Part shown: in pieces, positions 40,133 to 44,851 of the stretch
Numbering within the stretch: position 1 is the stretch's first letter
Layout of the letters: the number at the start of each line of letters is the position of its first letter
Assembly (NCBI RefSeq): GCF_900143685.1
Contig: NZ_LT671675.1
Span: 1 to 64,000, forward strand
Direction of reading: 5' to 3'
Length of the DNA: 64,000 nucleotides
Origin: Parolsenella massiliensis
Lineage (GTDB): Bacteria > Actinomycetota > Coriobacteriia > Coriobacteriales > Atopobiaceae
Made by a program: the position numbers and the translations under genes
Notes under the pieces: model-generated
What the model was told of the DNA's origin: nothing
What the model saw: only the letters and a program-made list of their open reading frames with translations
The model's database searches: none

Positions 40133-40141
40133 TGGTGGCGC

Positions 40142-42052
40142 ATGGAGGGTTCCCAGCGGGTGGGTCTCGGCGGCGGTTGGAGGGAAGCCCTACCGCTTCT
40201 GGGGATTTCCCTGATTCTGGGCACTCCACAGGTGCTTGCTCTGCCGGCGCCCTTTGCGAGTGATGGGCTTTCTCTGGCGCTTTCCTCGCTGCTACCTGTC
40301 GTGTCTCTGGCGGGGCTGTTCGGCGCGTCCGTTGCCGCTGCAAAGGGCGGCGGCGGGTGTCGCGAGCGCCTGGTTGCATGTGCTGGACTTGCCGCGACGG
40401 CAATCTATCTTGCGTTGTCGTGGTGGGTGGTTCTTAGCTGGTCGTGGGGTGTGGGCGTGGCGTCCCTTGGGGTTGCCGCCACGTTCGTCTTGGACGTGAT
40501 GGGGATGGCCGCTGCTGGCGTTGGCATGTTTGGCTGCTGCTATATGGCATGCGATGGGGGCGCGGAGGCACGGGCTGCCTCGCCTGCATCTGCTTGCCGC
40601 GTGCTTGTCTGCGCCCTGGCGGCTACGGGGATGCTCGGCGTTGCGGGGCGCTTTCTCCCCAACTGGACCATGATGCGTATTGCCGCCTCGTTTTCGGGGC
40701 CGGATGGCCGTCTCTTTGCGGAGTCCCTCTCTCTGGGAAGCCTCGAGGCCGCTCGTGGGCTTTGCCCCCTGGCGGCAGGGATTCCCTTCGCTTCGACCCT
40801 GGCTCTAGTGCCCAGTTTGGCCTGGGCCGTCTTGGTCACTGTGCTGAGGGCGCGTCCACGAACGATGGTGCGGGGTATATGCTCCGGTCTCTTCGCTGCT
40901 TGGGCCCTGTGCGCGCTGTTCCAGGAGCTTGGGCGCGCCCTTGTCTGGAGCGCGGCTGTTCCGGCCTTGCTCCTGGCGCTCGCGGGTTCCTTGCTCGCTG
41001 TTTCCTGCCGTTCGCATCGTCTTGGCGCAGCGAAGGGCGATGGCGGCGAGCCGGCCTCGTCGCTGACGGGCATCCTCTCTCCGCGAGAGTCGGAGGCCTT
41101 GCACCTACGCTTGGACGGGCTCTCTTCCTCGGAGGCCGCCGGGAAGATGGGCGTGAGCGCCTCGACGGTGAGGAACCTGCAGGCGCGAGCACTGGATAAG
41201 CTTGGCGTCGGGTCACTTGACGAGCTCCGTGCGGGCGAGGCGTCCGATCTCGGTACTTGCGGATTGAAGCCGGCTTCATGGGGCGTCGCGGTGTCCCTTT
41301 TGTTCGCCGTGCTAATCGGTGCGGTGCTCGTGGCGTTTTCCCGAACACAGAAGACGTGGGCTGACGCCGTCTCGGAAACTATGGTTCTCGGCATCTCCTT
41401 GAGTCTCTGTTCTCTGCTCCGTGGCGCTGGCTGGGACGAGCGGGTACCGCTCGTCTGGTACGAATTCGGGGCCTGCGCCTTCGTGGGCTTTCTGGCGGGC
41501 ATTGTGCCTTTGGTTTCTCTGGCTGCAGCGCTGCTTGCCCTGTTTGTGATGGTGGGCGAGAGGGGCGGCGAGCACCTCGATTCGTTCTCTGGCCTGTTCG
41601 TTGCATTTGGCCTGGGCGTATGCGTCGGGGGCTATGCGTCCGGGTTGTTGCCCCGGCTGCCCGCCTTGCTCGCCTTGGCGAGCAACAATGAGGACGCGAT
41701 GCTGCTTGCCGTGCTAACGGGAGTCGTTGCGGGTGCGCTCTGCCTCGTCGGGGTGACCTCGTGTGTGCTTGCGCTGCGAAGCGTGTCCGACCATTTCGCT
41801 ACGCCTGCGGAGGAAGCCGATGGAGGCCAGGGCATCCGCAGATTCTCTGCGTATCTCGTGAGCAAGGGCCTCAATCCTACCGAGGTGGATGTTGCGCGCC
41901 TGGTGCTGCAGGGTTTGGCGAGCCCGGAAATCGCCTTGAGGCTCAACCTCTCGAGAGGTGCCGTCAACTCCGCCCGCCGTGGAGCCTATCGAAAGCTGGG
42001 CATTCATTCCCGCACCGAGCTTGCCGAGGAATGCCGAAAGTTTCTCGATTAA
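40142..42052 (+). CDS. Multi-pass membrane LuxR-type regulator with two HTH domains
   Basis: A 636-residue protein of the membrane-LuxR type common in Coriobacteriia. About seven hydrophobic segments occupy residues 15-290. A LuxR HTH follows at 311-362 (LSPRESEALHLRLDGLSSSE, VSASTVRNLQARALDKLGV). A second block of about six membrane segments spans 385-570, and a second, more divergent HTH lies at about 575-636 (NPTEVDVARLVLQGLASPEI, LSRGAVNSARRGAYRKLGIHS). So it looks like two copies of the TM-HTH unit in tandem. It lies nine bases after nadE; the ribosome site is weak. Ligand and targets unknown; the adjacent convergent peptide/ABC cluster is a possible target by position. Confidence 0.85.
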   Translation: MEGSQRVGLGGGWREALPLLGISLILGTPQVLALPAPFASDGLSLALSSLLPVVSLAGLFGASVAAAKGGGGCRERLVACAGLAATAIYLALSWWVVLSWSWGVGVASLGVAATFVLDVMGMAAAGVGMFGCCYMACDGGAEARAASPASACRVLVCALAATGMLGVAGRFLPNWTMMRIAASFSGPDGRLFAESLSLGSLEAARGLCPLAAGIPFASTLALVPSLAWAVLVTVLRARPRTMVRGICSGLFAAWALCALFQELGRALVWSAAVPALLLALAGSLLAVSCRSHRLGAAKGDGGEPASSLTGILSPRESEALHLRLDGLSSSEAAGKMGVSASTVRNLQARALDKLGVGSLDELRAGEASDLGTCGLKPASWGVAVSLLFAVLIGAVLVAFSRTQKTWADAVSETMVLGISLSLCSLLRGAGWDERVPLVWYEFGACAFVGFLAGIVPLVSLAAALLALFVMVGERGGEHLDSFSGLFVAFGLGVCVGGYASGLLPRLPALLALASNNEDAMLLAVLTGVVAGALCLVGVTSCVLALRSVSDHFATPAEEADGGQGIRRFSAYLVSKGLNPTEVDVARLVLQGLASPEIALRLNLSRGAVNSARRGAYRKLGIHSRTELAEECRKFLD

Positions 42053-42095
42053 GTAAGTGGGCTCGCTCGAAATTAATCGAGCGAGCCCCGAGGGA

Positions 42096-42434
42096 TTACC
42101 AGGTGCGATAGTTGCACTTCAGGCGGCTAACGGTGCCTGGATAACTGTCCTTTGGGCTGAAGCCCGCCGCGCTCCAAAGAATCGTGGTGCCCTTTAGGCT
42201 ATAACCGCTTCGATAGGAAAGGCTCTTGTAGATCTTGTCGTAGCAGGAGACGTTGTGCGAAGAGTCATTTGCGCTCGCGAAGGCGCTGTAAGTGTCGAGG
42301 ACATCGTCAATGAGCAGATAGGGGGCAACGATACCGCCACTCTGAGCATGCGCGGGCGTAGCAACGAGGGCCGTTGGGGCAATTGAACAGGCGACCAGTG
42401 CGACTAGCAGGAACTTCTTGGCTTTCTTAAACAT
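42096..42434 (-). CDS. Small secreted peptide, bacteriocin-like
   Basis: A 112-residue precursor with a textbook Sec signal peptide: basic MFKKAKK, hydrophobic LLVALVACSIAPTALVA, cleavage near TPAHA|Q. The mature part is about 82 residues with two cysteines (SCYDKIY and KCNYRTW) that could form a disulfide, and it ends in an aromatic YRTW. A distant resemblance to lactococcin-972-type peptides (secreted, RSG..KG..W pattern and C-terminal W) is my inference. AAAGGAGGGATC precedes the start. It is the last gene of a permease-ATPase-peptide series, with about 48 bp before it. Confidence 0.75.
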   Translation of the reverse strand: MFKKAKKFLLVALVACSIAPTALVATPAHAQSGGIVAPYLLIDDVLDTYSAFASANDSSHNVSCYDKIYKSLSYRSGYSLKGTTILWSAAGFSPKDSYPGTVSRLKCNYRTW

Positions 42435-42482
42435 GATCCCTCCTTTTGAAGCTGTGGGGCGGGTCTACCTTGAATCCTCCTC

Positions 42483-43169
42483 TCACTCATAAAGCTCGCG
42501 ATAACGGGTGGCGCAGGAGCCGGGATGGTTTCGTGGATGGTCGTGGCACTCGATCTTGCCGTGAACGATGAAGGCAACGCGGTCGCAGGACTGGTCGACG
42601 TTCGCAAGGTTGTGGGTGGACATGACGATGGAGCGTCCGCCTCGCACGTACGAGCGCATGGCCCTCGTGACGACGCCCACGTTGGTGGGGTCGAGCGCGC
42701 TCATGGGCTCGTCGAGAAGCAACAGTTTCGCTCCGGTTGCCATGGCCGTGGCTATGGCGGCGAGCTGGGCCATTCCCTGCGAGCACTTGCGAACGGGTAG
42801 GTCGAGGAACGCCTCGATGCCCAGGCGCGAAGCGAGTTTGCCGACGTCTACATGGGACCTCCAACAATCCCTGGCGAACTCGATGTTTTGACGCACGGTG
42901 GCTCGCGCGCTGAGAATGCCGGGAGAGGGCAGGTAGAAGACGCCTTGCCTCCAATCGGCTGCGGTGGGTGCGCCTCCGTTGATGCTGGGGCCAATCGTGC
43001 AGCTTACGCGCTCGTCCCAGGGTTCCCAAATCGATTCGAGCAGCGTTGTCTTGCCGCTGCCGTTGGGCGCGACAAGCCCCGTGACGGTTCCCGAGGGGAC
43101 GTCGATGCGCGCATTATCGATTACTAGGCTATTTCCTCGGCGAACGGAGAGGTCAAGGAACGTGGTCAT
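42483..43169 (-). CDS. ABC transporter ATP-binding protein
   Basis: A 228-residue ATPase: Walker A GLVAPNGSGKTTLLESI, signature KCSQGMAQLAA (a variant of LSGGQ), Walker B LLLLDEPMSALDP, and switch histidine MSTHN. Its start overlaps the permease stop by four bases (ATGA), so they form one transporter. Next to a secreted peptide gene, it is likely an exporter or, because the peptide has its own Sec signal, a self-immunity pump. Confidence 0.92.
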   Translation of the reverse strand: MTTFLDLSVRRGNSLVIDNARIDVPSGTVTGLVAPNGSGKTTLLESIWEPWDERVSCTIGPSINGGAPTAADWRQGVFYLPSPGILSARATVRQNIEFARDCWRSHVDVGKLASRLGIEAFLDLPVRKCSQGMAQLAAIATAMATGAKLLLLDEPMSALDPTNVGVVTRAMRSYVRGGRSIVMSTHNLANVDQSCDRVAFIVHGKIECHDHPRNHPGSCATRYRELYE

Positions 43170-44368
43170 GAGAACCTCCTCTGCAGCCGCCCTGAGCGGG
43201 ATCTTTCTTGTAACGAGTCAACGAGAAGAGCCGCGAGAACCAGCGCCGCCGCAAATGCCAAGAGCGTGGCGCAACCCAGCTCCCACGTCGTGCCCGAGAT
43301 GACGCGGATGTCGAGCCCGTTGGCATAGACCGGCATGCCCACGACGCTTCCACACGAGAGGTACGAGCTGGGAAGGTGGCGCGCAATCTTCTGCCATTCC
43401 GTCTCCCGCGAGGCATACAGGGGAAGGAGCGGCGCAACGAGTAGGGCCAGGGAGAGCCCAAGGCCACAACTCGGCAGGATGGCCTCCGCCGTGGCGGCGA
43501 GCGCGGTGGTTACGAGGGCTGCCCCCATGATGAGCGCCATGTCCTTTGCGAGAACCTCCCCCACGGTGGTGCTCGCGACGTTTCCGTCGACAATCTGCAC
43601 GACGGGATAGGCGAGGTTCCCAAGCCCGTTCCTCACCAGGGCGAGCAATGTGGCGGGTGCAAGCTCCAGGGCGAGCGCGGCCAGGGCAAGGGCGAGTGCC
43701 ACGCCAAGGGCCGTCGTGCGCTTCTTGGCTCGATGAATCGGTGTCGCTTGCTCAAGCGATCTTGTGGCGAGACGGCGTTGTGACGCGCCCGCAAGCAGGG
43801 CAATGGGAAGCAGCGGCACGATACCGGGCATAAGGCCCAGAACAAAGGCGAGGTAGTAGGTGGCGGACATCTCGGCCGCAGTGTCGTAGACCTCGGGGTT
43901 CTCGAGTTGCGCCAGCCGGTGGATGAGCTCGGAGCGGGCGTAGAGGCTTGGATCTGGCTCGCTGTAGCCCGCCTTGACGCTTTCGAGCTCAATGTCGTAG
44001 TAGCGTGCGTAGGCGCCGAAGAAGTCCCTGCTTGGATAGGGTGTGGACGCAGCCTCCCCAAGGACAGTGAGCTCGCGGGCGTTGATGTCCTTGAGGTCTG
44101 CCGGTGCGGAGTCGTAGACGCCGTTGGCCGTGCTTGTCGACAGGATTTCGCGCGTCTGGCGTGCCTGTTCCTGACCGATTGCCTGGTCTGACAAGGTGGG
44201 GTATCCCATGAGCACGGGAAGCAGGAGCAAAATCTGAACGAGGACAAGAACGGCGAGCGTTGGCCTGTCCCAGAGGCATACCCTGAGCGTCGAGCGCGCG
44301 AGTGCGGCGAGCGGGCTTCTCATCTTGGACGCCGCGATGTCGAGCGTCGCTTCGGTGGGCTGGTGCAT
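43166..44368 (-). CDS. ABC transporter permease of a peptide/immunity-type system
   Basis: A 400-residue membrane protein. One membrane segment (about 37-57) is followed by a large extracytoplasmic domain (about 60-165, rich in QTREIL..., YARYYDIELESV) and then five to six further segments (170-192, 215-245, 270-295, 303-325, 365-392). This topology fits ABC-2-like bacteriocin or lantibiotic immunity permeases. GAAGGGAGAG precedes ATG 44368. First gene of the three-gene operon with the ATPase and secreted peptide. Confidence 0.85.
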   Translation of the reverse strand: MHQPTEATLDIAASKMRSPLAALARSTLRVCLWDRPTLAVLVLVQILLLLPVLMGYPTLSDQAIGQEQARQTREILSTSTANGVYDSAPADLKDINARELTVLGEAASTPYPSRDFFGAYARYYDIELESVKAGYSEPDPSLYARSELIHRLAQLENPEVYDTAAEMSATYYLAFVLGLMPGIVPLLPIALLAGASQRRLATRSLEQATPIHRAKKRTTALGVALALALAALALELAPATLLALVRNGLGNLAYPVVQIVDGNVASTTVGEVLAKDMALIMGAALVTTALAATAEAILPSCGLGLSLALLVAPLLPLYASRETEWQKIARHLPSSYLSCGSVVGMPVYANGLDIRVISGTTWELGCATLLAFAAALVLAALLVDSLQERSRSGRLQRRFS

Positions 44369-44851
44369 CTTCTCTCCCTTCTCCGGGTGAGTGCAGCGTC
44401 CACTATTTGTGATCTGATGTCTGTAGACGGAGCATATGAAGTTGGGAAGCGGGGCGTCTACAAGCCTTTGACCTCGCGTTTCTTCTCGAACCTATTTGTA
44501 CGCGCCAAGAGTCGTTGAGCACCCACATATGCGTGCTAGGAGGGCGTCTAGCGCGTATATGTGGGTGCTCGTTGGCTGGGCACGTAAATGTGGGTGCGCG
44601 GCTCACGGGCGTCCAAGGGCAATAGCTCTTCTCGGCAACGCAAATTCCCTGCGCCGTTGCGCTGAGATTGTGACGTTCGGTTGCACTCACAAAATCTAAG
44701 CGCGCTCAAAGAAGATTTTTTCATTTCTCGTTGTTATATCGAGAAGTGCTGGGTACCATTTCTAGCGTTGGTAACTAGCGCGCGGCACGCCGCCGCGCCA
44801 GCGACTGGCGTCAACGCAACCCGCCAGCGCTCAAGAAGGAGGTTCTTGGTT
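44369..44851. other. Intergenic region with palindromic repeats upstream of groES
   Basis: 483 bp without a gene, divergent between the ABC operon and groES. A long inverted repeat has the arms GAGCACCCACATATGCG (44517-44533) and CGTATATGTGGGTGCTC (44554-44570), matching at all but one position, with an inner stem GCTAG (44535-44539)/CTAGC (44548-44552). A third partial copy TAAATGTGGGTGC is at 44585-44597. Nearer groES, GCGCGGC and GCCGCGC form another hairpin around 44782-44800. I saw no CIRCE element; AAGAAGGAGG at about 44834 is the groES ribosome site. Confidence 0.7.

Follow-up and report, generated by a model that had tools for sequence, protein, structure and literature searches.

The window, that is, the whole stretch of 64,000 nucleotides analyzed from Parolsenella massiliensis (contig NZ_LT671675.1), carries three minus-strand genes in a tight operon, as judged from the list of open reading frames and the sequence, and exactly as described in the sequence-only reading followed up here. 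These encode an ABC-2-like permease of 400 residues (43166..44368; assigned by hydropathy and a homologue search), an ABC ATPase of 228 residues (42483..43169), whose gene overlaps the end of the permease gene by 4 nt and lies 48 nt before the peptide gene, and a secreted peptide precursor of 112 residues (42096..42434; assigned from its frame, ribosome binding site, and conserved family). The unit is larger than the segment 42096-44368 delimited earlier and extends to a LuxR-type gene on the plus strand (40142..42052), which is convergent with the operon. Its product, a membrane regulator of 636 residues, is arranged as a transmembrane (TM) block, a LuxR/GerE domain (residues 312-354), a second TM block, and a GerE domain (577-628); two DNA-binding domains are therefore present in one membrane-bound chain, and in the host genome this protein matches nothing but itself. 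The whole cassette (regulator, peptide, ATPase, and permease) spans approximately 4.5 kb (40141..44682) between nadE and groES.

The start codon of the peptide gene follows a strong, near-perfect Shine-Dalgarno sequence (AAAAGGAGGGATCA-ATG), and the GC content of the gene is 54.9% versus 62.9% for the window. The same frame is kept in relatives at approximately 22-40% identity, together with the signal peptide, the core, and a (mostly) aromatic C-terminus, so the gene is taken to be real and more than a chance open reading frame. The Sec-type signal proposed earlier was confirmed: the n-region (MFKKAKK) is followed by a single h-region (residues 8-26) and an A-x-A site, the signal patterns of relatives match, and a Sec signal peptide is likewise a property of lactococcin 972 (Lcn972)-type precursors. 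Signal peptidase I likely cuts after residue 30, between A-H-A and Q-S (site read by eye), to leave a mature part of 82 residues ending in KCNYRTW. The precursor contains three cysteines, C16 inside the signal peptide and C64 and C107 in the mature part, so that the earlier count of two cysteines holds for the mature part but not for the precursor. Although C16 lies in a lipobox-like LVAC sequence, a lipoprotein was rejected and the resemblance attributed to chance, because the h-region ahead of it is just 8 residues long and the signal peptidase I pattern prevails among relatives. AlphaFold2 gave a pLDDT of 35 for the full precursor and a weak all-beta model (pLDDT 55, three sequences only) for the mature part, for which Foldseek and VIA-align retrieved nothing reliable; 2LGN, the beta-sandwich reference of the Lcn972 family, and 9HKJ were absent among the matches listed.

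The ATPase (PF00005, 7e-19) retains intact Walker A (APNGSGKTT), signature-like (CSQGMAQ), Walker B (LLLLDEP), and H-loop (STHNL) motifs, and its nearest solved sequences are nucleotide-binding domains of the ABCA type. By hydropathy the permease has six TM segments, which narrows the six to seven estimated earlier; TM1 (residues 32-50) is followed by the large outer domain already recognized, of approximately 118 residues between TM1 and TM2, and by five TM segments from residue 169 on. Searched against NCBIfam and Pfam at E values up to 1, it gave only a chance M50 match, and one of 16 permease homologues reached the ABC-2 profile ABC2_membrane_3 (PF12698, 3e-4); the six-TM topology fits ABC-2 exporters. 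Relatives of the permease, which belong to no database family, were found in 24 of 100 related genomes, where they occur alone, fused to the ATPase (approximately 600-640 residues), or as a double permease. Nutrient uptake, raised earlier as an objection to an immunity function of the transporter, was rejected, since the permease matches no importer family and a solute-binding protein is absent.

Upstream of the permease gene, a perfect 14-bp inverted repeat (GAGCACCCACATAT...ATATGTGGGTGCTC, 44517..44570) is a candidate operator; its 13-bp half-site is unique in the genome, and a third, imperfect half-site lies at 44586-44598. No counterpart was present upstream of the permease at three related loci (L102, L106, and L051), which rules the repeat out as a general operator. 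The convergent LuxR and peptide genes flank a 12-bp hairpin (42058..42089), with z values of about -5.7 and -5.9, that may serve both as a terminator; it has no long T run. A simple promoter scan yielded no convincing promoter.

The peptide family in Coriobacteriales

The recurrence of the peptide in other genomes, which the sequence-only reading had proposed to check, was established by sequence searches. Of 100 related genomes, 5 contained relatives of the window peptide, counting the host genome itself; the host genome carries two further paralogues in tandem, away from the window locus. An alignment-based search added a second family (f10), at least one of whose genomes is Collinsella aerofaciens, and a close alignment searched against a wider sequence collection returned a single locus in Olsenella sp. 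KGMB02461 (L129), while the window peptide alone or diverse alignments searched against wider collections mostly gave no result. In total, 21 distinct members were aligned, and every occurrence in this analysis falls within the order Coriobacteriales, for example in Olsenella and Collinsella. Copies are located on 27-30 kb plasmids of C. aerofaciens, and the members of this species are annotated as 'hypothetical protein'.

In all members a leader, in which an A-x-A site is the rule, precedes a core of approximately 70-90 residues with the elements V-x-DT[YF], YK-x-[LI]-x-[YF], and G, and most end in Y-x-x-[WYHR]. In stricter form, the motif reads V-x-DT[YF]...YK-x-L-x-[YF]...Y...G...Y-x-x-W. 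The aromatic C-terminal end noted earlier is real in the window peptide, which ends in W, and is kept in most but not all relatives. The number of cysteines beyond residue 35 varies from 0 to 5, so a cysteine pair does not characterize the family. None of the Pfam, NCBIfam, PHROG, or PDB profiles recognizes the members as a family. A housekeeping secreted protein, which had been named as the finding that would count against the module, was rejected: no profile of such a protein matched, and most relatives, among them the second genome of this genus (G001), do not have the peptide. A phage or defence gene was likewise rejected, as PHROG, phage records, and PADLOC gave no match.

The family is small and diverse, and the deep branches of its tree have weak support; in this tree the closest kin of the window peptide are those at L102 (identical in position to L127) and at L106. 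The median pairwise identity is 32% for the peptide versus 28% for the permease; the peptide is not the more divergent partner, and nothing at this depth points to an arms race. As a separate observation, in family f10 (Collinsella-type; L107, L110, L112, L113, and L114) the peptide gene shows no synonymous change between different genomes, and dS of the adjacent permease-ATPase gene is approximately 0.07-0.11, a pattern suggesting that the peptide gene alone may have recently spread or been replaced.

Gain of the cassette and its partners at related loci

No cassette separates nadE from groES in G001, a genome of the same genus, or in two genomes of other genera (G024 and G021), in both of which nadE and groES are neighbours. 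G001, whose nadE product is 88% identical, matches the window up to 40140 and from 44683, with approximately 100 bp in place of the 4.5 kb. From these cassette-free sites, the four genes were most simply gained together, and recently; no transposase was seen at the junctions.

The peptide gene adjoins this ABC transporter at 14 loci (the window, L037, L039, L041, L042, L045, L050, L102, L103, L105, L106, L107, L109, and L111), and at most loci of the peptide family the distance to the permease or ATPase genes is 1-90 nt. A further 18 ABC loci in the sample showed no peptide; because some loci were retrieved with the peptide and others with the permease, these counts are not frequencies. In a search with the permease only, five of the listed loci besides the window (in G024, G023, G045, and two in G021) carry a peptide that the peptide search had found independently, and a further listed locus, in G068, carries another peptide of the family, found by the alignment-based search. 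At L106 (genome G199), a broken peptide gene lies beside intact ABC genes. Operon spacing, linkage at 14 loci, and gain of the cassette as a unit together give the co-oriented and co-inherited arrangement looked for in a candidate immunity gene.

Tandem peptide pairs without ABC genes also exist (L036, L043, L104, and L129), so that the ABC transporter cannot be the sole guard. The second locus of the host genome (L036:4172-5513; G000:C1 about 1164171-1165512) carries two different tandem members of the family followed by a 149-residue protein with four TM segments; the second-type peptides form a clade (support 89/99) with long branches. At L043 the second gene of the pair is split and again precedes a four-TM protein, whereas in Olsenella sp. 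KGMB02461 (L129) the pair is followed by a response regulator and a kinase-like gene; a further pair is located on a C. aerofaciens plasmid (L104/L126). At the counterpart of the host locus in G001 (L150:3150-3960), a deletion eliminated the first peptide and shortened the second by two thirds from its N-terminal side; approximately 39 C-terminal residues of the latter are still readable, and the four-TM gene is intact, with a dN/dS of 0.33. To judge from these sequences, the fossil pair and the intact gene represent a pattern of killer lost and guard kept.

Different regulators adjoin the transporter or peptide genes. Genes for membrane proteins with one or two LuxR domains immediately adjoin the permease or peptide gene in divergent (L039), convergent (L049, L051, L055, and L106), or same-strand (L127) orientation, and an OmpR response regulator with a histidine kinase is found at five ABC loci (L040, L041, L042, L046, and L119; checked with Pfam in L119). 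The link of regulator and permease is recurrent and not exclusive, since sequences matching both LuxR domains are also present in genomes that yielded no permease, or at other places of the genome (G004 and G017). At one locus (L047:4762-8785), a member of the permease-ATPase family is followed by BlaI- and BlaR1-like genes, neighbours that suggest a link of the transporter to cell-wall stress. The role of all these regulators is inferred from gene neighbourhood.

This arrangement bears on two alternative explanations of the peptide. The position of its gene after the ATPase gene in the operon, the BlaI/BlaR1, response regulator/kinase, and LuxR genes beside the ABC genes, and the many genomes with ABC loci and no peptide are consistent with an extracytoplasmic accessory subunit, or a decoy, of a BceAB- or LanFEG-like transporter that would detoxify foreign antimicrobials. 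We regard this as quite unlikely, given that most ABC loci lack the peptide, which therefore is not an obligate subunit, that peptide pairs exist with no ABC genes nearby (L036, L043, L104, and L129), and that the peptide paralogues duplicate and vanish independently. Alternatively, the peptide might be a secreted signal or sensor ligand read by the linked regulator and removed or sensed by the ABC transporter, in a signalling of cell density or envelope state. Regulators are linked at many loci, and at the ABC-less L129 the response regulator and kinase directly follow the tandem peptides; nevertheless, the mature protein is large for a signal (82 residues, with an all-beta prediction from a weak model), G001 lost the peptide and retained the four-TM partner, and ABC-only loci with regulators are frequent, the regulators varying by locus where peptide and ABC transporter stay constant. 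Signalling is accordingly judged an unlikely function.

A candidate bacteriocin with proposed ABC immunity

With moderate confidence, the cassette is best interpreted as a bacteriocin-like competition module in which a Sec-secreted peptide is paired with ABC immunity in an Lcn972-like organization. The earlier proposal of a bacteriocin and immunity module thus remains the best-supported one, through recurrent linkage to one transporter family, mobility (gain as a discrete cassette and copies on plasmids), tandem paralogues, and peptide loss with a retained guard at the sister locus, although a sequence link to known bacteriocins was not obtained. Further observations point the same way: ABC-only loci are common, as in lactococcin-972-type loci (scbBC only; PMC11796350), a broken peptide gene accompanies intact ABC genes at L106, the combination of Sec leader and ABC pair has precedents (Lcn972 and mediterrocin), and the regulators beside the ABC genes (OmpR response regulator with histidine kinase, BlaI/BlaR1, and membrane LuxR) are typical of the response to peptide or cell-wall antimicrobials. 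The interpretation is weakened by the missing resemblance to any known bacteriocin, by the ABC-less tandem pairs, by the two-component systems, which could mean a signal, and by the lack of a divergence excess.

According to this interpretation, Sec would export the 112-residue precursor and signal peptidase I would trim it, leaving an 82-residue, probably beta-rich protein that would act extracellularly on related bacteria. The ATPase/permease pair would then remove or displace the peptide, or close relatives of it, from the membrane of the producer and so confer immunity, and the double-LuxR membrane protein may sense the peptide or envelope stress and control the operon. More broadly, and tentatively, Coriobacteriales might possess an undescribed class of Sec-secreted antibacterial proteins. 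Some would act alone, each accompanied by an ABC transporter as its guard, and others as two-peptide pairs accompanied by either a small guard protein in the membrane or a two-component system. Part of their regulation would fall to double-LuxR membrane proteins, and they would spread in cassette form, on chromosomes as well as on plasmids of Collinsella.

Mouth and gut commonly harbour Olsenella and Collinsella, yet a literature search (titles and abstracts) for bacteriocins of this group retrieved no publication describing such a system from them. If the interpretation is right, recurrent, mobile, and lineage-bound secreted peptides with their guards would explain competition within these genera, would supply antimicrobials of narrow spectrum directed at particular gut commensals, and would permit a direct test of protection by an ABC-2-type pump against a secreted protein. 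Definition of the peptide family also takes unnamed genes out of the 'hypothetical protein' pool of annotation pipelines.

Comparison with known systems

A bacteriocin with a Sec leader and an ABC pair, without a processing exporter, is an established design, known from Lcn972 (PMC4055356) and mediterrocin (PMC12345188). The Lcn972 locus consists of a structural gene and of orf2-orf3, which encode a putative immunity transporter of the ABC type (PMC4055356); for streptococcin B (scbABC), 27.5% of the scb loci consist of scbBC only (PMC11796350), and immunity by membrane proteins is mostly inferred for systems of this type (PMC11796350). Mediterrocin comprises 114 residues with a 25-residue leader and is 18% identical to Lcn972 (PMC12345188). 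The present locus resembles these three in its Sec-type leader and its adjacent multi-TM permease and ATPase, as well as in an unmodified mature protein of 60-90 residues with an aromatic end, occasional location on plasmids, and immunity-only remnants (PMC4055356, PMC11796350, PMC12345188). It differs in gene order (permease-ATPase-peptide), in the double-LuxR regulator, in cysteines that are often present but variable, and in a permease with six TM segments by hydropathy as opposed to the seven-TM DUF1430/TIGR01654 immunity protein of Lcn972 loci.

The weak similarity to lactococcin 972 noted earlier holds for locus organization but not for sequence. The profile search that had been proposed gave no match at E values up to 1 between PF09683 or NCBIfam profiles and the window peptide or any of the 21 members, a PF09683 scan of the host genome was also negative, and hhalign of the family against five Lcn972-family sequences returned a probability under 0.1%. 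None of the DUF1430 families in Pfam matched the 16 permease homologues, TIGR01654 did not match the window permease, and the ATPase scored 63.6 bits against TIGR03608 (Lcn972 ABC; cutoff 254.85), below many other ABC models. Membership in the lactococcin 972 family was rejected on these peptide, immunity protein, ABC, and profile-profile comparisons. A divergent member with similarity below profile detection could share the locus logic (Sec leader, multi-TM permease, and ATPase), the precursor size (114 residues in mediterrocin, PMC12345188), the aromatic C-terminus, and the beta-rich, low-confidence model, yet is very doubtful: besides the lack of a PF09683 or NCBIfam match in any of the 21 members, the near-zero hhalign probability, and the differing permease and ABC profiles, the N-terminal W-x-x-G part of the compared Lcn972-family sequences is missing, and a true PF09683 protein from the same bacterial family (G007) looks different. 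The latter, a lactococcin-972-like peptide from another genus (L056:1321-1701; PF09683, 33.5 bits), resembles the solved 9HKJ, and ABC partners were absent from the 3.2 kb fetched.

Like LanFEG and the ABC immunity systems of AS-48/MR10, the cassette has a dedicated ABC transporter beside a (candidate) bacteriocin gene; ABC immunity is widespread, and one transporter can serve several unrelated bacteriocins (PMC10598978). Unlike them, it has one large permease with an outer domain between TM1 and TM2, often fused to the ATPase in relatives, and belongs to other sequence families; the lantibiotic ABC model TIGR03740 scored the ATPase at a generic level only (75 against 310 bits). The sister loci, and not the window operon, recall class IIb two-peptide bacteriocins in their two different tandem peptides and, at L036 and L043, in the four-TM protein alongside, but their leaders are of the Sec and not the double-glycine type, their peptides are larger and of beta type, and the sequences are unrelated. 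The Lcn972-like locus logic is known; what appears to be new is the family itself, candidate bacteriocins of Coriobacteriales that would depend on Sec and have ABC transporters as guards.
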